This document shows, in pieces, positions 2 through 24,728 of a stretch of DNA of 25,070 nt. The first letter of the stretch is position 1. Each line of letters begins with the position of its first letter. A program made the translations under genes and the position numbers. The stretch spans positions 1 through 25,070 of IMG/VR virus record IMGVR_UViG_3300017738_000034. One strand, written 5' to 3'. This DNA is from a virus. Under the pieces are notes generated by a model. It was given only the letters and a program-made list of their open reading frames with translations, had not been told where the DNA came from and made no database searches.

Positions 2-190
2 ATCGAAGACTATTTCTTACAAGCTACTTTTTATTCATATGCATTCTATGAGAGAACTGGTAAGTTAATAGAGAATATAAAAATCCTTGTGTGCGTCAGA
101 GATGGTCAAATACAGGTGTTTGAGAAAAATGTTAAGGATTACATCAAAAAACTTGACAATCGTATTAAAGAGTACTATAATCAATCCTAA
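2..190 (+). CDS. C-terminal end of a PD-(D/E)XK exonuclease-like protein (partial)
   Basis: Open from the first bases to a TAA at 188-190, giving the last 62 residues of a gene that starts outside the window. The segment begins EDYFLQATFYSYAFYERTG and continues with a hydrophobic strand (IKILVCV) followed by DGQIQVFEKN and a basic, tyrosine-rich helix. This order (Q-x-x-x-Y-x-x-x-x-x-x-T-G, a strand, then a helix) is what I know from the C-terminal part of phage RecB/lambda-exonuclease-like PD-(D/E)XK nucleases, where the Q belongs to the fourth conserved motif. The catalytic D/E/K residues would lie upstream, so activity cannot be judged. The next gene starts 10 nt downstream and is probably co-transcribed. 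Confidence 0.6.
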   Translation: MEDYFLQATFYSYAFYERTGKLIENIKILVCVRDGQIQVFEKNVKDYIKKLDNRIKEYYNQS

Positions 191-6349: not shown

Positions 6350-7246
6350 ATGAATCTAAAAAAAGTTAACTTCTCAATTGAAGAAGTGTCAAAAGAGTTC
6401 GTCTACACATTTGTCCAAAAGTATCATTATTCGCCAGTATTTCCAGTATTAACAAAACATTGGCTAGGTGTTTTTCTTGATGATATTATGGTTGGCGCTG
6501 TAACTCTTGGTTGGGGCACCCAACCAAAAGGCACTATTCGAAAAATGTTCCCTAATCATGAATTTGAATCAGGTGATTATTATGAGATTGGTAAAATGTG
6601 TATGTCTGATGATTTACCCAAAAATTCCGAATCACAAATGATCAAGAGTGTTGTCAATTGGTTGAAAACAAGAGATAGAAATCTAAATAAAGAACAAGAC
6701 AGAAAACTTTTTCTTTATACGATGGCTGACGGTATAATGGGTAAAGTTGGGTATGTTTATCAAGCATCCAACTTCTATTATGGTGGTAAGTATTGGACTG
6801 ATGTTTACATGTCAGAAACAGGTGAGAAGATACACCCAAGGACAGCGAGTAAACTCTGTAAAGAGAATGCTGAATTTGTTGGTAAACCTAAAATATTCTG
6901 GTTGACTCCTGATTTTCTAAAATCAAAGAAAATGAAAAGAGTTAGGGGTAGAATGTTTAGGTATATTTTTCCACTAACAAGAAAAGCTGAAAATATCTTA
7001 TCCGAATATGGGTGGGTTAGAGACTATCCAAAGAATGATGATCTCGAATGGCAAATACAATCTTGGGAGAAGAATTCTAGTGGTAGATGTACTTGGGGTT
7101 CTGTTGATGATAAACCGCCATTTTGTTATAATGAAATAAAACACAATAAAAAAAATGTGGAAAAGTATAAGAGGATAGTTTTTTCTGAAACAGATTGGTC
7201 TAAAAGTAATGTTATGAAAACAGATTTGCAAAGGTTTTTTAAATGA
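6350..7246 (+). CDS. Mom-like GNAT-fold DNA-modification protein
   Basis: Protein of 298 residues. The N-terminal half looks like the Mom/GNAT group: FVQKYHYSPVFP with H26-Y27-S28, then HWLGVFLDDIMVGAVTLGWGT (a typical 'LG.F.DG.LVGA..FG' strand pair), a YEIGKMCMSD strand, and KSVVNWLKTRDR and LFLYTMADGIMGKVGYVYQASNFYYGG (the '..YAD...G..G..Y.A.NF.Y.G' part of the fold). Phage Mu Mom converts adenine to an N6-carbamoylmethyl form and protects DNA from restriction. The C-terminal third (lysine-rich, with WGSVDDKPPFCYNEIKHNKKN) is extra compared with Mom (231 aa). Role as a modification enzyme is inferred. It has no Shine-Dalgarno; see the promoter at 6315-6343. The stop overlaps the next ATG (ATGA). 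Confidence 0.6.
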   Translation: MNLKKVNFSIEEVSKEFVYTFVQKYHYSPVFPVLTKHWLGVFLDDIMVGAVTLGWGTQPKGTIRKMFPNHEFESGDYYEIGKMCMSDDLPKNSESQMIKSVVNWLKTRDRNLNKEQDRKLFLYTMADGIMGKVGYVYQASNFYYGGKYWTDVYMSETGEKIHPRTASKLCKENAEFVGKPKIFWLTPDFLKSKKMKRVRGRMFRYIFPLTRKAENILSEYGWVRDYPKNDDLEWQIQSWEKNSSGRCTWGSVDDKPPFCYNEIKHNKKNVEKYKRIVFSETDWSKSNVMKTDLQRFFK

Positions 7247-9548: not shown

Positions 9549-9633
9549 GGAAGATTGTCCGAGTGGTTTAAGGTGCTTGCTTGGAAAGCAAGTGTGGGGA
9601 AACTCACCACAGGTTCGAATCCTGTATCTTCCG
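9549..9633 (+). tRNA. tRNA-Ser(GGA)
   Basis: An 85-nt class II tRNA. The acceptor arm GGAAGAT (9549-9555) pairs with ATCTTCC (ending 9632) with discriminator G. The anticodon stem CTTGC/GCAAG holds the loop TTGGAAA with anticodon GGA (9583-9585), reading UCC and UCU. The long variable arm (TGTGGG GAAA CTCACCA) is the mark of serine tRNAs, and the T arm is ACAGG-TTCGAAT-CCTGT. CCA is not encoded. TATAAT at 9536-9541 lies 8 nt upstream, but no -35 box is at the right distance. Phage tRNAs often supply codons used more by the phage than the host. Confidence 0.95.
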
Positions 9634-9655: not shown

Positions 9656-10264
9656 ATGATTGTTGTTGGTATTGGCGGCGTTGCTCGTTCTGGTAAAAAT
9701 CTCCTATGTGACTTATTAATGCAGAATTTGTACCTTGAGGGGTACACATCTAAACAGTTTGCTTTAGCTTCTGATTTGAAAAATGACTGTAATGAGTTTT
9801 TATATAAGATGTGTGACTTGAATGTGTGGACTGATTTAACAGAAGATAAAGTGCAATTCAGAGAGTTTCTAGTTTGGTATGGTGACTTGAAAAGAAAACA
9901 GTCCAATGGTCGATACTGGATTGAAAAACTTGATAGAAGAATTTCAACATATGAAGGTGATGTCGCAATAGTCACTGATGTTAGATATGATGTCTATGAT
10001 AAAGATGAAGTTCACTGGATCAAGGAAGAAAAAGAAGGTTTGTTAATCCATTTAAAAAGATTTGCAAGAGATGATGAAGGGTTTCTTTGTCAAATCAAAC
10101 CAGCGAACAATCACGAAAGTTTGAATGATGGTTCATTATACACGAAATCTGATATAAACATCACATGGGAAACTGTCAGTGACCCTAAAAAGAATGATAC
10201 TATATTAGATATAGTGAATGACACTACGAAAAAAATAATTGAAAAAATTAAAAATCCCTATTGA
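9656..10264 (+). CDS. Deoxynucleoside monophosphate kinase-like protein (gp1-like)
   Basis: Protein of 202 residues with a P-loop GVARSGKN (residues 8-15); T4 gp1 has GVKRSGKD at the same place, so the missing S/T is normal for this family. Later features fit NMP kinases: QFALASDLKNDCNEFL, REFLVWYGDLKRKQSNGRYWIEKL (the 'G...R...P..W' region of dNMP kinases), AIVTDVRYDVYDKDEVHWIKE (Walker-B-like, with the TDVRY found in phage dNMP kinases) and a C-terminal strand. It would phosphorylate dNMPs made from degraded host DNA or by phage synthesis. AAGG precedes the ATG. It follows the tRNA by 22 nt and is probably on the same transcript. Confidence 0.75.
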   Translation: MIVVGIGGVARSGKNLLCDLLMQNLYLEGYTSKQFALASDLKNDCNEFLYKMCDLNVWTDLTEDKVQFREFLVWYGDLKRKQSNGRYWIEKLDRRISTYEGDVAIVTDVRYDVYDKDEVHWIKEEKEGLLIHLKRFARDDEGFLCQIKPANNHESLNDGSLYTKSDINITWETVSDPKKNDTILDIVNDTTKKIIEKIKNPY

Positions 10265-10289
10265 CAATAACATTATAATGTGTTATTAT
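10261..10289 (+). promoter_or_regulatory. Promoter of the ParB-like gene
   Basis: TTGACA (10261-10266), a 17-nt spacer, TATTAT (10284-10289) with TGT before it. The spacer contains a perfect 10-bp palindrome, CATTATAATG (10271-10280), which could be an operator. The -10 region shares the 13-mer ATGTGTTATTATA with the gene 32 promoter. The leader (about 43 nt) carries an 8-bp inverted repeat, ATGAAATT (10296-10303) and AATTTCAT (10322-10329). Confidence 0.75.
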
Positions 10290-10338: not shown

Positions 10339-11454
10339 ATGGCTTATAAGCCGAAAGCGAGAAAAATCATGGGCAGAAGATTGCCAGTATCGGAATTTGT
10401 GAAAGAAATGCCTAAGGGTGAAGTCCAAATACAAGATTGGAGTCATTTAGGTGTAAAAACAGTTAAGGTTATCGAGATAGATTTTGAAGATATCTTTATT
10501 GATGACATAGAAAATAACACCACCAAAGTATTAACGCATACAGCGGATGAGATTGAAGCATTGAAGAGGGATTTCTCCGTTGGCGTCTGCACTTCAGCTT
10601 TTCTCCCAGCTGTAACTAAGTTTGAAAGTGAATTAATTGAAGGTGAAAAAGCTTTCAAATATAAGTTACAATATGGGTTTGGTAGATGTGAAGCTTTACT
10701 GGGCTTGAATCAAAAGAGGTGGTTATTTATTTTGTTGGAAGGTAATGATGACGCTCTTGAAGATGTAAAAGCTCAGGAGAATGAACCTCCACCACAGAGA
10801 AGAAACACCGAAGATGATATGTTTCATTTCATATCTAAAAAGATAACTTCTGGTAAACTTAAAAGGACACAAAAAGCAGTGGAATCTAAGCTCCAGAAAG
10901 TCTATCCAACTAGGTCTCAACAAATTAGAACAAAAGTTCTAAATAGAATTATATCAACACACTCTGGTATCAAGTCGCAATATTATACTTACACATCCAA
11001 ACCTAGAATCCAACAGTGGTATAGAAACTACAATTCTAACGACTTGGTAACTAGTAATAATTATGATAGTGTCAGAGACATGTATGGTAGAACGGTTGCA
11101 TGTAAATATCTTTATAGGATAGTCCATCAAGCTTTGGACACTTACAAGAAAACTGGGAAGTATACTTATTTCACAGTTCATCTAAAAGTACCTTCTAAAA
11201 ACACTACTCATGCAATGATGATAAAGGAAGTTGTGCAATCTTATGTTGATATAGTTTCCAATTTGAGAAACATAGGAGCTAATGTTATCCCTTTTGTGTT
11301 TGAAGGTATTCTACCATATGATATTTCACAGAACCCCAAACACTTAATTGTGCCAGCTGAAGTTAGAAGACTGAAAAAACTTACAGGATTTAATGAATCC
11401 GAATATCAAGCTGTTCAAAAATCTAGAACTGGGTTGTTTAAAGCGACTCCTTAG
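10339..11454 (+). CDS. ParB-like domain protein, 371 aa
   Basis: The N-terminal third reads like a ParB/sulfiredoxin-type domain: VKVIEIDFEDIFIDDIENN, TADEIEALKRDFSVGVCTSAFLPAVTKFE, then YGFGRCEALLGLNQKRWLFILLEG (compare the 'G..R..A.....' GHRR box of ParB) and VKAQENE (compare the 'ENIQR' helix). The remaining two thirds are basic and helical, possibly a DNA-binding part (KRTQKAVESKLQKVYPTRSQQIRTKVLNRI). Phage ParB-like proteins are known as nucleases or ATP/CTP-binding regulators; which applies here is unknown. No Shine-Dalgarno precedes the ATG at 10339; a second in-frame ATG at 10369 is possible. It is the only gene between its promoter and a strong terminator. Confidence 0.6.
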   Translation: MAYKPKARKIMGRRLPVSEFVKEMPKGEVQIQDWSHLGVKTVKVIEIDFEDIFIDDIENNTTKVLTHTADEIEALKRDFSVGVCTSAFLPAVTKFESELIEGEKAFKYKLQYGFGRCEALLGLNQKRWLFILLEGNDDALEDVKAQENEPPPQRRNTEDDMFHFISKKITSGKLKRTQKAVESKLQKVYPTRSQQIRTKVLNRIISTHSGIKSQYYTYTSKPRIQQWYRNYNSNDLVTSNNYDSVRDMYGRTVACKYLYRIVHQALDTYKKTGKYTYFTVHLKVPSKNTTHAMMIKEVVQSYVDIVSNLRNIGANVIPFVFEGILPYDISQNPKHLIVPAEVRRLKKLTGFNESEYQAVQKSRTGLFKATP

Positions 11455-11469
11455 ATTTTTTAATTAATG

Positions 11470-11504
11470 AGAATGTGGGCTTAAAAACCCACATTCTTTT
11501 TTTT
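11470..11504 (+). terminator. Intrinsic terminator after the ParB-like gene
   Basis: GAATGTGGG (11471-11479) pairs perfectly with CCCACATTC (11488-11496), extended by an A-T pair, followed by eight Ts (11497-11504). It isolates the ParB-like unit from the metallopeptidase-like unit. Confidence 0.9.
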
Positions 11505-11519
11505 ATTTCCATAAACCTC

Positions 11520-11548
11520 TTGACACAACTCCCATATTATATTAAGAT
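11520..11548 (+). promoter_or_regulatory. Promoter of the HEXXH/CobT-like gene
   Basis: TTGACA (11520-11525), a 17-nt spacer and TAAGAT (11543-11548). The -10 is framed by the inverted repeat ATATTAT (11534-11540) and ATAATAT (11550-11556), a dyad centred on the -10, and overlaps a GATC (11546-11549). AGAGAGGAG follows as the ribosome binding site. Confidence 0.8.
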
Positions 11549-11570: not shown

Positions 11571-12632
11571 ATGTCACCGAAAAAGAATCTAGATTATAAA
11601 GACATTGTTGGTAAACTAATGTCACAGGAGAATATTTCAATTGTTCATTCACCAAATGCTAGAACAGCTAGTTTTGATTTGGAATCCAGAACTTTGTTTT
11701 TACCAGAGTTTGCGAACGTATCAGAAGACGTTTATGACCTTTTGATAGGTCATGAGGTTTCACATGCATTGAATACTCCAAAACAAGGTTGGCATAAATC
11801 CACAGAAAAGAAAGGTGCAAACTTCAAAACCTTTTTGAATGTTGTTGAGGATGCTCGAATTGAGAAGATGATTCAAAAGAGATTTCCAGGCCTTAAGTCC
11901 TCATTCAAGAAAGGTTATAAAGAACTTTATGATATGGACTTGTTTGGTATTAGAAACAAATCAAAGAAAGAACTTGATGATATGTTACTGATTGATAGAT
12001 TGAATCTATATTTCAAACTGGGACATTATCAATCAGGTGTTTCATTCAAGGAAGAAGAACATCAATATGTTGAAGAGATGGAAAACTTGAAGACTTGGAA
12101 AGATGTTGTAAAACTTTCCGAAAAACTCTTTGAGTATTGTAAAGAAGAGATGAAAGAGAAAGAACAGGAACAAGAAGAAGGTGAACCAAAATCTAAAACT
12201 GGTGATAATGATTTACAAGGGGATTTCGAACAATCTTCCTCAGAACAAGAACAGGATCAAGATTCAGAACAAGAAAAGTCAGAAAGAGATGATTCAGAAG
12301 CTTCGGATAAATCTTCTAGTCAAAATCAAGATGGTAGTGACGGTTCTGGTGATAATCAGGATACAGGTGATGAATCAGAATCAGGGAATGATTCGGGAAA
12401 TGGGTTCAATAATTCGGAACCAATGTCACTCACTGATAAAAATTTTCGAGAGAATGAGGATAAGTTAAACTATAATGAAGAAAGAGATAGGAATCCTTGG
12501 AATAAGAATGCAAGTTCGTCACTAGACTTACCTATTCTAGAAGAAGAATTTTTCTATGATGATTGGAGAAAAGTTGAAAGTGATGTGAAAAAATGGAGAA
12601 AGAAAGTTGAATATAATGGTTGGGGTATTTAA
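11571..12632 (+). CDS. HEXXH metallopeptidase-like protein (CobT-like N-terminal part)
   Basis: Protein of 353 residues. After an N-terminal alpha/beta part comes IGHEVSHALNTP with HEVSH at residues 61-65 (zinc ligands and catalytic Glu), then FLNVVEDARIEKMIQKRFPG, whose acidic residues probably supply the third ligand. Residues about 185-290 are a low-complexity acidic linker of E, Q, S, D, G and N, as in CobT. The end (EEEFFYDDWRKVESDVKKWRKK) is basic. In other T4-like phages I know this module and a von Willebrand A domain as one protein; here the chain stops after the linker and the vWA part is a separate gene 64 nt on with its own promoter. It probably works with that protein and the AAA+ ATPase at 13867. 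Target unknown. Confidence 0.75.
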   Translation: MSPKKNLDYKDIVGKLMSQENISIVHSPNARTASFDLESRTLFLPEFANVSEDVYDLLIGHEVSHALNTPKQGWHKSTEKKGANFKTFLNVVEDARIEKMIQKRFPGLKSSFKKGYKELYDMDLFGIRNKSKKELDDMLLIDRLNLYFKLGHYQSGVSFKEEEHQYVEEMENLKTWKDVVKLSEKLFEYCKEEMKEKEQEQEEGEPKSKTGDNDLQGDFEQSSSEQEQDQDSEQEKSERDDSEASDKSSSQNQDGSDGSGDNQDTGDESESGNDSGNGFNNSEPMSLTDKNFRENEDKLNYNEERDRNPWNKNASSSLDLPILEEEFFYDDWRKVESDVKKWRKKVEYNGWGI

Positions 12633-12646
12633 TTTTTAAAAAACTA

Positions 12647-12675
12647 TTGACAACACTTCATATGTACGTTATGAT
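12647..12675 (+). promoter_or_regulatory. Promoter of the vWA gene
   Basis: TTGACA (12647-12652), a 17-nt spacer, TATGAT (12670-12675). The -10 overlaps the palindrome ATGATCAT (12671-12678), which contains GATC. It lies wholly in the short gap between the two halves of the CobT-like pair. GAGAGGTG (12682-12689) is the ribosome binding site. Confidence 0.8.
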
Positions 12676-12695
12676 CATATTGAGAGGTGAAAATT

Positions 12696-13790
12696 ATGTA
12701 CAACGAGAAAGAGTATAAGAAGTGGAACAAGAAATACAAAAAGTTCCAAAAAGCAAATAAACAAAGTATCACCAAAATGGTTCTAGATTTCAATCGTAAG
12801 AAATCAGCAAATATTGCAAAGAGAGTTAAGAAAAAAGATACAGGTGTGATTGATGAAAGACTCTTACACTCTTATCGTTGGAATGATAGAATATTCAAGA
12901 CTAAAAAGATTGTACCAGAGGGTAAGAATCACGGACTAGTAATGTTAGTTGATTGTTCTGGCTCTATGCAAGAGTATGACAAGTTTGAGAGTGCGATTAA
13001 ACAAGCATTGATACTTGTAGATTTTTGTAGAAAGGTTGGAATTAAGTATAAGGTTGTCGGTTTTGGTAATGGTAACTACCATTCTTCTAGAGATAAAGTG
13101 AAGTATAAAAACGACTCATCCAAAAGACATCTGGAAATAAAACATGTGCCTTTATTAAGAGAGTGGTTCAGTCATGAACAAACGATAAAACAACATGATT
13201 TCATGGCAACTTACATGGTATTTAAGACGAAAAAGCATAGAGCTGGTTTTGTTTCTGATGGTCCTAATTCTGGAACACCTTTAATTGATAGTATTTTTCT
13301 TTTGAGACAAGTTGCTCTAAAGTTTAAAGAAGATGAAAAAATTGACATTCTAAACACAATAACATTGACTGATGGTTTGTCTAATAATGCAACCTTTCTA
13401 GATTGGGATAAAGGTTTAGTTACTAAGTTGTCATCATATGACCCTCTAACTAAATCTGTTTACAGAACTTCTGACACTGATGATTTAAAAAGTGTTTTAA
13501 AGTTTTACAAGAAAGTTGTTGGTGGAAACATTATCGGTTTCGACATAACGAACAGTGGATACTTTGGTCTTCCTAGAACTTCAATAGATGTTCGAGAAGA
13601 ATGGCAGGGATATGATCATCATTACACTTTCTCATTCAAGAGTATATATGATGATGCTAAGAAAGTGTCCAGACAAGATAAAGAAATTCCGAAAAGTGTT
13701 GAGGAGTTGAGTTCAAAGTTCAATCAAAAGGGTGTAACTAGAAATAATGAAAAAATACTTTTGTCAAAATTTATTGATATTATTTCATAA
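12696..13790 (+). CDS. von Willebrand factor A domain protein (CobT-like C-terminal part)
   Basis: Protein of 364 residues from the ATG at 12696 (GAGAGGTG upstream; a GTG at 12687 overlaps that site). A basic N-terminus (KEYKKWNKKYKKFQKANKQS; FNRKKSANIAKRVKKKDTGVIDERLLHSYRWNDRIFKTKKIVPEGKN, broken here for length) leads into LVMLVDCSGSMQEYDKF: D86-C-S88-G-S90 is the MIDAS motif. LILVDFCRKVGIKYKVVGFG and NTITLTDGLSN give the later strand and MIDAS Asp. Metal binding should therefore be intact. In cobaltochelatase-type and MoxR-type systems, such vWA proteins pair with a hexameric AAA+ ring and bring it to its client. The AAA+ gene is next. No cobalamin genes are present, so a cobaltochelatase role is unlikely. 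Confidence 0.85.
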   Translation: MYNEKEYKKWNKKYKKFQKANKQSITKMVLDFNRKKSANIAKRVKKKDTGVIDERLLHSYRWNDRIFKTKKIVPEGKNHGLVMLVDCSGSMQEYDKFESAIKQALILVDFCRKVGIKYKVVGFGNGNYHSSRDKVKYKNDSSKRHLEIKHVPLLREWFSHEQTIKQHDFMATYMVFKTKKHRAGFVSDGPNSGTPLIDSIFLLRQVALKFKEDEKIDILNTITLTDGLSNNATFLDWDKGLVTKLSSYDPLTKSVYRTSDTDDLKSVLKFYKKVVGGNIIGFDITNSGYFGLPRTSIDVREEWQGYDHHYTFSFKSIYDDAKKVSRQDKEIPKSVEELSSKFNQKGVTRNNEKILLSKFIDIIS

Positions 13791-13795
13791 ACCTA

Positions 13796-13824
13796 TTGAC
13801 ATGTGTTCTCATATTTGTTACAAT
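13796..13824 (+). promoter_or_regulatory. Promoter of the AAA+ gene
   Basis: TTGACA (13796-13801), a 17-nt spacer and TACAAT (13819-13824) preceded by TGT. The leader contains AAGGGTGAGAAA, similar to the GGGGTGAGAGAG leaders in the accessory region. AGAGAGGGTG lies before the ATG. Confidence 0.8.
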
Positions 13825-13866
13825 AGCTATATAAGGGTGAGAAACTGAGACGTAAGAGAGGGTGTT

Positions 13867-15144
13867 ATGAGAGAAGAAAAAGTAAACAGGTTCAGAGAGT
13901 TTATCAATGTTTTATACAAATCAGCTTTACCATTAGACGTTTATTCTAAAAAAGGTTTAGTGGATATAGCTACAACAATAAATCCAAAACTATCAAGATG
14001 TCAAATTAATAACATGATTAAAACTCTTTGGAGAGTTGAGGGTGTCAATAAGTTTGGTGTTGGTAAATTTGAAATCCCAGAAATGTCAGTCTTTGAAGAT
14101 TACATTGCTTCGGTATCAACTAGTAAAAGTACTACTAAAAAGGTGAAAGAGAAAGTCGAGATGGCTGAGAAAGTAAAAGGAACTAAAACAACTAAAAAAG
14201 TTGTGGATGAAAACCAAGAAGTTAGTTATGTCCCAGAAGCAGATAAGAACTATGTTAGGTGGGGTGACTATAAGACGATAGATCAAGTTATCAAGTCTAA
14301 GATGTTCTACCCTATCTTTATTACTGGATTGTCTGGTAATGGTAAGACGATGATGGTAGAACAAGCTTGTGCGAAGAATAAGCGTGAGATGTATCGTGTT
14401 AATATTACTTGCAGAACTGATGAGGACGATTTGTTAGGTGGATTCCGTTTGGTTGATGGTCAGACTATTTGGTTTGATGGTCCAGTCGTAAAAGCGATGA
14501 AAACAGGTGCCATACTATTATTAGATGAGATTGACTTAGCGTCTGATGAAATTATGTGTCTTCAACCTATCCTTGAAGGTAAAGGTGTCTTTCTAAAGAA
14601 GATAAACAAATTTGTTCAACCAACTGAGGGTTTTCAAGTGTTTGCAACTGCTAACACAAAAGGTCAGGGTGATGAACATGGAAAGTTCGTCGGAACTGGA
14701 TTTCTGAATGAAGCATTCCTTGAAAGGTTCCCTGTAACAGTGGAACAGACTTATCCAAAGAAAGTGACTGAGGTTAAAATCTTGACTAAGTTTTGGGAAA
14801 GTCTAGAAACTGAAAAACCAAGTGATGTTGAAGATATGGAAACTTTGATAGACCAGCTGGTGACTTGGGCAGATATAACTAGAACATCGTATAATGAGTC
14901 TGTATTGAGTGACCTGATTACAACTAGAAGATTAGTTTTCATAATGAAAGCATATAGTATTTTCGGTAATATTCAGAAGTCGATAGAGTTGAACTTGAAC
15001 AGGTTTGATGATGTAACCAAGATGAGTTTCATGGATTTGTTCAAAAAAGTCTCCGCCATTGAAGATATGTCAGAAGAAGATTTAATTAAAGAAGAAGAGA
15101 ATGTAACAGAAGCTTCTTTTGATTTAGATAAAATAAACCAATAA
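13867..15144 (+). CDS. MoxR/CobS-type AAA+ ATPase
   Basis: Protein of 425 residues. An N-terminal helical domain (about residues 1-70) and a lysine-rich linker (about 85-115) precede the AAA+ core: GLSGNGKT Walker A at 154-161, the RTDEDDLLGGFR insert typical of MoxR/CobS, ILLLDEIDLAS Walker B with D220-E221, the VFATANTKG sensor-1 segment at about 258-266, and FLNEAFLERFP with the arginine-finger region. It would form a ring that hydrolyses ATP and remodels a client recruited by the vWA protein encoded just upstream. CobS-like genes are common in marine T4-like phages, where their role is open. The C-terminus is acidic. Confidence 0.9.
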   Translation: MREEKVNRFREFINVLYKSALPLDVYSKKGLVDIATTINPKLSRCQINNMIKTLWRVEGVNKFGVGKFEIPEMSVFEDYIASVSTSKSTTKKVKEKVEMAEKVKGTKTTKKVVDENQEVSYVPEADKNYVRWGDYKTIDQVIKSKMFYPIFITGLSGNGKTMMVEQACAKNKREMYRVNITCRTDEDDLLGGFRLVDGQTIWFDGPVVKAMKTGAILLLDEIDLASDEIMCLQPILEGKGVFLKKINKFVQPTEGFQVFATANTKGQGDEHGKFVGTGFLNEAFLERFPVTVEQTYPKKVTEVKILTKFWESLETEKPSDVEDMETLIDQLVTWADITRTSYNESVLSDLITTRRLVFIMKAYSIFGNIQKSIELNLNRFDDVTKMSFMDLFKKVSAIEDMSEEDLIKEEENVTEASFDLDKINQ

Positions 15145-15169: not shown

Positions 15170-15481
15170 ATGTCAACAAATGTACATGTAATACCCAAGA
15201 AAAGAAAAGCAAGTAATAAAGTAGAACACTATGTAATCTTACCGATAAGTCGAGATCAGTTGCGAGACAGGTCTGAAAAGGAAACTCAGAAAGCTTTTCT
15301 ATTAGATAATGTCTGGTATCCTAAAAGTTTATTATCTTATGAGGATGGTATGTTGGCAATGCCACTTTGGTGGGTTACAACGACAAAGAAAAATATAGCA
15401 CAAACTGGTGAAGATGTTTCCAATGTCCTCTCTCCTCTCACTCTTACACAACTGAGGAACATCGTAACAAACACCAAGTGA
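15170..15481 (+). CDS. Hypothetical protein, 103 aa
   Basis: Not recognised. GAAAGGAAAAACAAATG gives a good ribosome binding site 25 nt after the AAA+ gene, so it is probably the last gene of that unit. Residues: VHVIPKKRKASNKVEHYVILPISRDQLRDRS (broken basic start), LLDNVWYPKSLLSYEDGMLAMPLWWVTTTKKN (a likely small beta sheet) and a helical tail. It could be an accessory factor of the trio by position only. Confidence 0.65.
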   Translation: MSTNVHVIPKKRKASNKVEHYVILPISRDQLRDRSEKETQKAFLLDNVWYPKSLLSYEDGMLAMPLWWVTTTKKNIAQTGEDVSNVLSPLTLTQLRNIVTNTK

Positions 15482-15673: not shown

Positions 15674-16010
15674 TGAAATTGAAAATGCTTGGGTGAAAAC
15701 TTTCTTGGGAAAGTATATTCTGGTGAGGTCTAATATGGCAGGTGTATTTGTCGGTCTACTTTCCAACGTTGGAGCGCAGGGTAATATTCTTGTCCTTGAG
15801 AACTCTAGAAGAATCCGAAGATGGGTTGGTGCGGTTGATTGTTCAGATCTATCTGTGAATGGTATGTCAAATCCATCTGAAAGTACAGTGATGCTCCCAG
15901 AGGAGTTCAAGGTACTAAATGGATGGGAAGAGTTAGGACCACTCACAGAACAAGCAAGAGATGTTATTTACTCCTGTTCAGAATACTCCCACGAGAACTC
16001 CAGTGATTGA
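15660..16010 (+). CDS. DUF6948-like protein
   Basis: Protein of 116 residues if read from the ATG at 15660 (GAGG 4 nt upstream; ATGs at 15651 and 15663 are alternatives). The pattern YILVRSNMAGVFVGLLSNVGAQGNILVLENSRRIRRWVGAVDCSDLSVNGMSNP (quoted in pieces: YILVRSNMAGVFVGLL; NILVLENSRRIRRWVGA; LSVNGMSNP) and EEFKVLNGWEELGPLTEQA matches the small phage beta protein family DUF6948 ('V.S..AGV..G.L....L....RR...W.GA..L..LA..G...P...E'). Function is unknown. In phage genomes I have seen it followed by glycine-rich proteins, as here. Confidence 0.65.
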   Translation: MMQSNEIENAWVKTFLGKYILVRSNMAGVFVGLLSNVGAQGNILVLENSRRIRRWVGAVDCSDLSVNGMSNPSESTVMLPEEFKVLNGWEELGPLTEQARDVIYSCSEYSHENSSD

Positions 16011-16284
16011 TCAGTTATGGTATTATGATGGAATGTTTTCATCGTCTGGGGTAGGTTCCTCTACAGGTTCTGGATGTGATATATCTTATGAAGATAAAGG
16101 TGAAGGGATTTCTTGTGGTCAAGGTCATAACAACTCTTATTATTCTTATGCAAATCGAGGATATGTTTCCATAGGTTTTGGCCAAGGTACAGGAACAGGT
16201 TCTGGATATGAATATGAACATGATGATAAACCAGAATGTGTTGGAACCCCTCTTGTGTATGGTTTTGTGCTTAACGATCTATAA
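15961..16284 (+). CDS. Glycine-rich repeat protein 1, up to 107 aa
   Basis: The frame is open from an ATG at 15961, overlapping the DUF6948-like gene by 50 nt; a later ATG at 16033 gives about 83 residues and begins right at the Gly/Ser-rich part. The sequence is built of GS, GT, GY and GQ units with scattered Tyr and acidic residues (SSSGVGSSTGSGCDISYEDK; GFGQGTGTGSGYEYEHDD). Neither start has a good Shine-Dalgarno. Such low-complexity glycine/tyrosine proteins may form extended or condensate-like structures; no function is known. First of three in tandem. Confidence 0.55.
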   Translation: MLFTPVQNTPTRTPVIDQLWYYDGMFSSSGVGSSTGSGCDISYEDKGEGISCGQGHNNSYYSYANRGYVSIGFGQGTGTGSGYEYEHDDKPECVGTPLVYGFVLNDL

Positions 16285-16293
16285 GGTTTTAAT

Positions 16294-16506
16294 ATGGATA
16301 TATTTGATCCAATATGTGACGACGATGACAATATTGAATATATTGGATGGGGTGACGGAAATTCAGTAGGGTACGGAACAGGTCGCCCAGAAGGATATCA
16401 TCCGATTCCAAAGTGTGAAACTTTTCTCTATGGTGATGAATGGGAAAAAGATGGATGTGGTGCTGGAATGGCAAAAGGTTCTGGTATAGATTATTATGAT
16501 GACTGA
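16294..16506 (+). CDS. Glycine-rich repeat protein 2, 70 aa
   Basis: AAGG lies about 8 nt before the ATG. The acidic start (MDIFDPICDDDDNIEYIGWG) is followed by G-D-G-N-S-V-G-Y-G-T-G-R-P-E-G-Y and GCGAGMAKGSGIDYYDD. Same character as its neighbours: glycine, tyrosine and aspartate with little else. The stop overlaps the next gene's start by up to 11 nt. Confidence 0.6.
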   Translation: MDIFDPICDDDDNIEYIGWGDGNSVGYGTGRPEGYHPIPKCETFLYGDEWEKDGCGAGMAKGSGIDYYDD

Positions 16507-16801
16507 TGAATCAAATTATGAATTCGGTGAAGGGTATGGCAGAGCCACTGGGAGTGGTTTTGATTTTGGATATTCTTTGGGTCCATCCTCTATGGGGTAT
16601 GGGCATGGATGTTCTGAAGGATATGGTGATACGGTATCTGAAGGGACTGGAACTGGTAAGTCTATTGGATTTGGTTTAGAGTGGAAAAACAATTTCCCAA
16701 GTGGTTGTGGATATGGGACATCAACTGGTGCTGGTGGATTGAATGGTCATAATGGTTGGGGGTATGGTGTAACTGGAGGAACATACAATAACGAAATATA
16801 A
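16496..16801 (+). CDS. Glycine-rich repeat protein 3, 101 aa
   Basis: Starts at the ATG at 16496 or 16499 inside the end of the previous gene. The body is nearly all GYG, GTG, GSG and GFG units (GEGYGRATGSGFDFGYSLG; MGYGHGCSEGYGDTVSEGTG; GCGYGTSTGAGGLNGHNGWG), about 35-40 percent glycine by eye. It ends just before the duplicated promoter at 16822. No function known. Confidence 0.6.
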   Translation: MMTDESNYEFGEGYGRATGSGFDFGYSLGPSSMGYGHGCSEGYGDTVSEGTGTGKSIGFGLEWKNNFPSGCGYGTSTGAGGLNGHNGWGYGVTGGTYNNEI

Positions 16802-16816
16802 AAAATAATTTCGAAA

Positions 16817-16900
16817 AACTATTGACTTTTACTGGCCATATGTTAAGATCAGATCGTAGGGGTGAGAGAGAAGGCCCCAGAAACTAGAAGGAGAAACGAA
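16817..16900 (+). promoter_or_regulatory. Duplicated strong promoter and leader, copy A
   Basis: TTGACT (16822-16827), a 16-nt spacer and TAAGAT (16844-16849) with TGT before it and two GATC sites at and just after the -10 (16847-16850, 16852-16855). The leader contains GGGGTGAGAGAGAAGGCCCC, where GGGG (16859-16862) can pair with CCCC (16875-16878). Bases 16817-16886 are identical to 20188-20257 (70 nt). AGAAGGAGA before the ATG at 16901 is the ribosome binding site. Confidence 0.85.
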
Positions 16901-17371
16901 ATGGCTTATATCAACAAAGAACAAGTAAAAGAAATTAGAGTTGCGTTAAAAAACAAATTCCCAGAGATCAAGTTCTCTGTTAGAAAAGAGAACGGTTCGT
17001 CTGTTCATGTAAATATAATGAAGTCTCCATATAACTTCAGTTACTTAAATAGGTTCAGATCTGACGGACACACACAACTTAACAGATACCATCTTCCAGA
17101 AGGGCCTCATAAAAATTTGTTTGAGGAAATTCTAGAAGTAATCTTGTTCGGTTCTTCGAGAAAGTTTTATGACAATTCTGATGCTCAGATAGACTATTTC
17201 GACACTGCTTTCTATGTCCATATGGGTATAGGTGATTGGGGAAAAGGTTATGAGATGATTCCTTGGGAAAAAACAAAGAAGATTGTTAAGAAGAATTCTA
17301 ATAAAAAAATCAAAGGTATTAACAAATCTAAAGCAAATCAACTTGCTAGTGATTTCATGTCTTCTATATAG
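16901..17371 (+). CDS. LPD29-like protein A, 156 aa
   Basis: Starts at the ATG at 16901 behind AGAAGGAGA; a GTG at 16862 lies in the leader. VKEIRVALKNKFPEIKFSVR, then a V-H-V-N-I-M-K-S-P-Y strand, FEEILEVILFGSSRKFYDNSD, and YFDTAFYVHMGIGDWGKGYE match LPD29 ('..IR..LK..FP.IKFSV....S..V.W', '..D.Y.D..D.Q.DYF...FY....G.WDK.Y'), a small domain of phage and plasmid proteins with no known activity. A basic tail (KIVKKNSNKKIKGINKSKAN) follows. It is homologous over its whole length to the protein at 24351 and in its first 45 residues to the one at 20271. Confidence 0.75.
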   Translation: MAYINKEQVKEIRVALKNKFPEIKFSVRKENGSSVHVNIMKSPYNFSYLNRFRSDGHTQLNRYHLPEGPHKNLFEEILEVILFGSSRKFYDNSDAQIDYFDTAFYVHMGIGDWGKGYEMIPWEKTKKIVKKNSNKKIKGINKSKANQLASDFMSSI

Positions 17372-24288: not shown

Positions 24289-24317
24289 TTGACTTTTGCT
24301 TGTATATTTGTTATACT
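24289..24317 (+). promoter_or_regulatory. Strong promoter of LPD29-like gene C
   Basis: TTGACT (24289-24294), a 17-nt spacer, TATACT (24312-24317) with TGT, then GATC (24318-24321) and TTGTAGGTGAGAGAAAGAG. The -10 and start region are the same as in the promoter at 20989. AGAGAGGACA before the ATG is a usable ribosome binding site. Confidence 0.85.
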
Positions 24318-24350
24318 GATCTTGTAGGTGAGAGAAAGAGAGGACACAGA

Positions 24351-24728
24351 ATGTATATTAGTAAAGAAGAAATCAAAGAAATCAGGAATGCTCTTAAAAA
24401 AGAATTCCCAAATGTCAAGTTCCAAGTTAAGAAGAATCATAATGGTTCTTCGGGTGTTGAGGTTAATATTCTGAAGTCTTCTTATGATTTTAGTGACTTT
24501 CCTCATTATAACCCTAATAACTGTAATGATATAAACATCTATCATATGCACATGTACAAGAACTGTAAGAACTTCGAAGTACTTGAAAGAGTATTAGAGA
24601 TTATTAAGAATGGTTCGGAAAGAAAGTGGTTCAATAAGTCTGAGAGTCAGTCGGATTATTTCTATGAGGCTTTCTACATTGACTTGGGTATTGGTAATTA
24701 TGACAAAGGATATAGTTATGAAAAGTAA
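24351..24728 (+). CDS. LPD29-like protein C, 125 aa
   Basis: ATG at 24351; upstream in-frame codons lie in the leader. Aligns end to end with the protein at 16901: KEEIKEIRNALKKEFPNVKF (A: KEQVKEIRVALKNKFPEIKF), VEVNILKSSYDFS (A: VHVNIMKSPYNFS), ERVLEIIKNGSERKWFNKSE and DYFYEAFYIDLGIGNYDKGY (A: DYFDTAFYVHMGIGDWGKGY). It lacks the basic tail of A. No catalytic residues can be named. It overlaps the MORN-like gene by 11 nt. Confidence 0.75.
   Translation: MYISKEEIKEIRNALKKEFPNVKFQVKKNHNGSSGVEVNILKSSYDFSDFPHYNPNNCNDINIYHMHMYKNCKNFEVLERVLEIIKNGSERKWFNKSESQSDYFYEAFYIDLGIGNYDKGYSYEK

Follow-up and report, generated by a model that had tools for sequence, protein, structure and literature searches.

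Is a CobT-like protein that other T4-like phages make as a single chain really encoded by two genes in one phage lineage, and what would the two products do together with the ATPase encoded beside them? The question is raised by three consecutive genes at positions 11571–15144 of a 25,070-nucleotide stretch of viral DNA (IMG/VR virus record IMGVR_UViG_3300017738_000034, positions 1 to 25,070), referred to here as the window. A sequence-only reading had described a row of genes encoding an HEVSH motif followed by an acidic linker, a DCSGS metal ion-dependent adhesion site (MIDAS) and an AAA+ ring protein, and had taken the first two to be one chain elsewhere. Both observations were confirmed. 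The split is real, and is maintained by selection in a marine T4-like phage lineage.

The three genes are intact and lie on the plus strand, in the order zincin-like, von Willebrand factor A (VWA), AAA+. Gene 1 (11571–12632) encodes a gluzincin-like domain, an acidic low-complexity linker and a conserved C-terminal tail with a predicted helix, and is closed by a TAA stop at 12630–12632. Gene 2 (12696–13790) encodes a helical hinge (residues 1–76) and a VWA domain with a complete MIDAS; its start is the ATG at 12696, preceded by a ribosome binding site (GAGAGG, 12682–12687) that a GTG at 12687 overlaps. Gene 3 (13867–15144) encodes an AAA+ ATPase of the CobS/midasin/NorQ type. A promoter scan placed a candidate site upstream of each gene, at 11520–11548 (TTGACA-17-TAAGAT, 10 of 12 positions matching), at 12647–12675 within the junction of genes 1 and 2 (TTGACA-17-TATGAT, 11 of 12) and at 13796–13824 (TTGACA-17-TACAAT, 11 of 12). 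The stop, promoter and ribosome binding site that had been reported between the first two genes are all present in the sequence.

Genes 1 and 2 match consecutive parts of a single family in PHROGs, phrog_459 (‘peptidase’). The product of gene 1 aligns with positions 3–321 of the 736-position profile (E 1e-78) and that of gene 2 with positions 336–736 (E 2.4e-55), so that jointly they span the whole profile. In nearly all members examined the N-terminal and VWA parts are fused in one chain; here they are two open reading frames (ORFs) with in-frame stops between them. Gene 2 lies in the frame of gene 1, and four in-frame stops would be met on reading through. Readthrough joining the two products was considered and set aside as implausible, given the in-frame stops in the spacer.

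Genes 2 and 3 served as queries for relatives, and each locus was called fused or split from its ORFs and profile matches. The split was seen in six contigs, namely the window, L002, L003, L005, L009 and L004 (extended as L246), each of which has a stop, a spacer of 57–67 nucleotides containing a sigma-70-type site, and a start codon. Every other locus with both parts was fused: 55 in a first sample and all 79 that could be resolved in a second, many of the fused loci in both samples being near-copies. The named phages Syn33, HTVC008M and DLP6 also have the N-terminal and VWA parts in one chain; in Syn33 two features lie beneath one match, the second being only the overlapping next gene. The concern that homologues might always be separate is thus answered, most of them being fused. 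The break falls in the spacer that varies most, flanked on one side by the segment after the acidic linker and on the other by the hinge ahead of the VWA domain, both of them conserved.

The parting of two stretches joined in relatives by a single stop could in principle reflect a sequencing or assembly error, or leave gene 2 as a decaying remnant. Against this, six contigs from separate records concur, the stop at 12630–12632 being kept in all six, and the spacer holds several in-frame stops, a promoter and a ribosome binding site. Because five further contigs share the stop and promoter at the junction, the split is not a sequencing error, and the proposed refutation through loss of the stop fails. 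The ratio of non-synonymous to synonymous substitution (dN/dS) is also low on both sides of the stop. In comparisons with L002 and L003, dN/dS is 0.08–0.12 for gene 1 and 0.05–0.07 for gene 2 (0.05–0.09 at its widest), while gene 3 is close to 0.1; the overall range for the two halves, with tail and hinge counted in, is 0.05–0.15. Within gene 1 it is 0.04–0.06 over residues 1–200 and 0.02–0.07 in the tail, with the acidic linker looser at 0.19–0.27; the hinge of gene 2 gives 0.01–0.03. In more distant pairs dS is high or saturated, and dN/dS there is rough. Both halves are under purifying selection and look like functional genes, and an artefact or a decaying remnant is scarcely credible.

The junction promoter is found in all six split contigs with 10–11 of 12 positions matching, and in mononucleotide shuffles of the junctions an equally good promoter arose in 0–4% of cases for every one of them. 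The promoter of gene 1 recurs upstream of gene 1 in L002, L003 and L005 and as a variant in L009; taken alone it is not rare in shuffles (p 0.06–0.09). The pattern TTGAC[AT]-16..18-TAnnnT occurs 17 times in the window, where mononucleotide shuffles lead one to expect 2.7, and 9 of these sites lie no more than 120 nucleotides upstream of an ORF. A 137-kb relative has 44 such sites against 20 expected, but in its 40–80 kb region few lie upstream of ORFs. The predicted promoters of the trio are of a type common in this phage. One good terminator was found upstream of the trio (11469–11498), and the terminator scan found none in either junction between the three genes. The scan does place a candidate promoter ahead of each gene; the further proposal that their ratio can be set separately went beyond this, since without junction terminators the promoters should stack on one transcript unit and add up rather than act independently. 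If so, mRNA would rise from gene 1 to gene 3, with VWA mRNA exceeding zincin mRNA and AAA+ mRNA most abundant, which would fit several motor subunits per adaptor.

In unrooted trees of the VWA domain, the six split sequences and a second set carried by the L009 contig fall on one side of a branch with 99% support in the Shimodaira–Hasegawa-like approximate likelihood ratio test (SH-aLRT). In the zincin tree, likewise unrooted, a branch again sets the split sequences apart, with SH-aLRT support of 99%. The L009 contig (3300033182_001261) carries two complete, diverged split sets (L244 and L245). In the second of these the zincin and VWA genes abut with no junction promoter, and the AAA+ gene lies about 4.7 kb downstream, which suggests that the promoter either arose after the two genes had separated or disappeared from this set. 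Separate genes also occur in Pseudoalteromonas phage vB_Psh_XG4 (L088:4869-8421), where the VWA gene comes first, then the zincin gene and last the AAA+ gene, whose reading frame is interrupted to give two overlapping ORFs in a record marked UNVERIFIED. The XG4 split was at first assumed to be independent; this proved unsupported, as the approximately unbiased (AU) test did not reject a single group comprising XG4 and the window lineage (p 0.64). When relatives of the XG4 zincin gene were sought, one distant locus emerged, and it is fused. Fission is a likelier, though unproven, direction of change than an ancient separation. A Spartobacteria metagenome-assembled genome (L107) has HEAAH...NCIEDVRIE and a VWA domain in one chain, which hints at fusion as the earlier arrangement. 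The ratio of mean split-to-fused to fused-to-fused branch-length distances is 1.69 for the VWA domain, 1.72 for AAA+ and 1.10 for the zincin, so that the VWA and AAA+ proteins seem to have diverged in step, unlike the zincin; this is a lead only, from one group and quick trees.

The product of gene 1 has 353 residues, with HEVSH at residues 61–65 and NVVEDARIE near residue 93; the 87 residues taken as the acidic linker contain 27 D/E and 5 K/R. Residues H61, E62, H65, E93, D94, R96 and I97 are invariant across 31 sequences, and E93 is the presumed third zinc ligand. An AlphaFold2 (AF2) model has a mean predicted local distance difference test score (pLDDT) of 71, and no ten-residue block between 51 and 200 falls below 80. 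Its best structural matches are BlaR1, ArdC and the minigluzincins selecase and jannalysin, with modest Z scores of 4.7–5.6, consistent with a gluzincin-like fold and with the invariant HEXXH and EDxRI. Homology of this domain to the bacterial CobT N-domain was considered on account of a suggestive motif (EDxRIE versus EQxRVE), and was abandoned when the profile comparison failed, with a probability of 0.7%.

Gene 2 carries DCSGSM, and its MIDAS is formed by D86-x-S88-x-S90, T194 and D226; these residues (DxSxS-T-D) are invariant across 32 sequences. In Pfam it matches VWA and CobT_C below threshold only. The nearest structure to its AF2 model (mean pLDDT 68) is the midasin (MDN1/Rea1) MIDAS domain, with a Z score of 18.3 and 3.4 Å over 218 residues; the VWA domain of NorD scores 15.5. 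Sequence searches for solved relatives of the zincin and VWA parts gave none that was convincing. Gene 3 has the Walker A motif GLSGNGKT and matches phrog_249 (E 5e-105 in PHROGs) and Pfam AAA_5 (E 3e-18); among solved proteins its profile matches are midasin (E 9e-57), CobS (2e-32) and NorQ (5e-14). As in MoxR/CobS-type AAA+ systems with a VWA partner, a gene for an AAA_5 ATPase adjoins one for a VWA protein with DxSxS-T-D.

We consider that the trio probably encodes an AAA+/VWA remodelling machine of the NorQD–CobST–midasin kind, in which a gluzincin-like subunit is docked non-covalently and the ‘CobT’ chain exists as two polypeptides; we put the probability of this reading at roughly 0.6. 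We infer the partnership of the AAA+ ring with the VWA protein, the docking of the zincin and its possible peptidase activity. The AAA+ protein would form a hexamer and engage the VWA protein, whose MIDAS would grip the client via an acidic residue, and ATP hydrolysis would turn or pull the client. The zincin-like protein would dock non-covalently, with its conserved tail and the VWA protein's helical hinge as the contact, and would either hold the client at a second point or cut it. A doubtful elaboration is that the peptidase subunit freely joins and leaves the ring in such a three-part machine, so that the dosage and timing of cutting are separate from remodelling. Some points weigh against the reading as a whole. 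In NorQD, rotation of the VWA domain driven by the ring and straining the linker to the N-domain has been proposed from cryo-electron microscopy (PMC13036017), and the covalent linker on which that force would act is missing here. Structural matches for the zincin fold are weak, with Z about 5 and a Foldseek E of 0.1. Fission as opposed to ancient separation is unproven, with XG4 possibly in the split group and the tree unrooted.

As the NorQD-type linker is cut here, either docking is non-covalent, which we favour, or the zincin works apart. In the latter case the split would have freed the zincin to act alone as a peptidase on separate targets, leaving the VWA and AAA+ proteins as a two-part remodelling machine. 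The zincin half does have its own promoter and intact catalytic residues, and the distance ratios given above look as if it were changing apart from the other two. That rate pattern, however, comes from the limited trees already described, and all six contigs keep the three genes adjacent and in the same order. In the second L009 set the gene that stands apart is the one for AAA+, the zincin gene remaining beside the VWA gene, and the likeliest contact surfaces, namely the tail encoded by gene 1 and the hinge encoded by gene 2, are well conserved. A free-standing zincin is accordingly unlikely.

It has been proposed for the cobST genes of tailed viruses (PMC8651126) that the proteins join host CobN, insert cobalt and raise cobalamin production, and gene 3 does resemble CobS, both in NCBIfam (79 bits) and in the match to solved CobS. 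That score, however, is far short of the cut-off of 559 for TIGR01650 CobS, and CobT is missed too, with 11.2 bits against a cut-off of 759 for NCBIfam TIGR01651 and, in gene 2, 15.4 bits against 21 for Pfam CobT_C; CobT_N was unmatched and CobT (PF06213) was not listed. The zincin domain failed to match bacterial CobT N-domains, as described above, and a chelatase would have no obvious need of its invariant residues. The names ‘CobT’ and ‘CobS’ used in the sequence-only reading thus stand as a resemblance and fail as family membership, the equivalog cut-offs being widely missed; on profile scores, gene 3 is homologous to CobS and not an equivalog. No CobN was found in six records (the window and five related records, one of 137 kb), which may be fragments, in keeping with the earlier statement that no cobalamin pathway is present. 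In the same records no ribonucleotide reductase large chain scored above the cut-off, and no cobalamin riboswitch was found in the window. The cobaltochelatase explanation is lowered by these results to very unlikely, allowing that the records may be incomplete and CobN may be supplied by the host; cobalt insertion as the role of the trio is not supported.

The docked remodelling machine that we prefer has several known counterparts. NorQ/NorD resembles the machine predicted here in combining an AAA+ ring with a VWA adaptor; NorD differs in that its N-domain is covalently linked to the VWA domain, and a zincin is not described in NorQ/NorD. Midasin is alike in its AAA+ profile and MIDAS domain, and differs in that a single giant chain holds both ring and MIDAS. 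Aerobic cobaltochelatase CobS/CobT likewise places an AAA+ protein beside a VWA protein, whereas the trio was found without CobN, does not match the CobT N-domain family and carries a zincin motif. The phrog_459 and phrog_249 (‘CobS / porphyrin biosynthesis’) pairs of T4-like cyanophages and Pelagibacter phage HTVC008M have the same domains in the same order in adjacent or nearly adjacent genes. In those pairs the N-terminal and VWA parts form one chain of about 700–810 residues, whereas here there are two proteins with a promoter between their genes. The idea of a two-gene CobT-like protein is not new, being preceded by XG4 and HHTV-2. XG4 has separate zincin and VWA genes beside an AAA+ gene, in a different order and very diverged. 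The haloarchaeal tailed virus HHTV-2 was reported with cobT in two ORFs, the VWA domain being separate (PMC8651126). Its gp2 keeps HEVQH and NVLED; its cobST genes are very distant, with the AAA+ gene 3 kb from the VWA gene.

Immediately after the AAA+ gene lies a gene for a 103-residue protein (15170–15481), which is kept in L002, L003, L005 and, diverged, in L009. It had no family match in the Pfam or PHROGs searches, and its product is a possible fourth component of the trio. Three consecutive small Gly/Tyr/Ser-rich ORFs follow at 15961–16801; they are kept in near relatives and were not seen behind the L009 trio. Upstream, between a deoxynucleoside monophosphate kinase-like gene and the trio, is a 371-residue ORF (10339–11454), ParB-like by eye in its middle part, with its own promoter (10261–10289) and the terminator at 11469–11498; it is absent at that spot in L002 and L005, and a different ORF is present in L003. 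A tRNA gene (Rfam, 9549–9633) lies just upstream of the kinase-like gene, and the 137-kb relative has a tRNA-Ser (GGA) close to its trio. Elsewhere in the window are a Mom-like DNA modification protein (6350–7246; phrog_1384, E 1e-30), two phrog_10415 paralogues of unknown function (16862–17371 and 24300–24728), and a protein at 200–1429 that matches a family of unknown function (phrog_19197, E 7e-131) and weakly resembles DruA from the Druantia defence system, its 24.9 bits falling below the cut-off of 27. A search of named phages for DNA relatives gave none near for 20 kb of the 137-kb relative, and a host search via genome contigs yielded nothing close, its matches being distant phage-like contigs and CobST-like pairs of bacteria.

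Both cobS (PMC3037559) and cobST (PMC8651126) have been placed in the core genome of marine T4-like cyanophages, and cobalamin annotations of the phage pair persist. The invariant zincin residues and the midasin-like VWA domain point to protein remodelling or cutting rather than cobalt insertion. The natural two-piece version offers ready-made separable subunits for expression, and would test the need for the covalent linker that is stretched in the NorQD twisting model.

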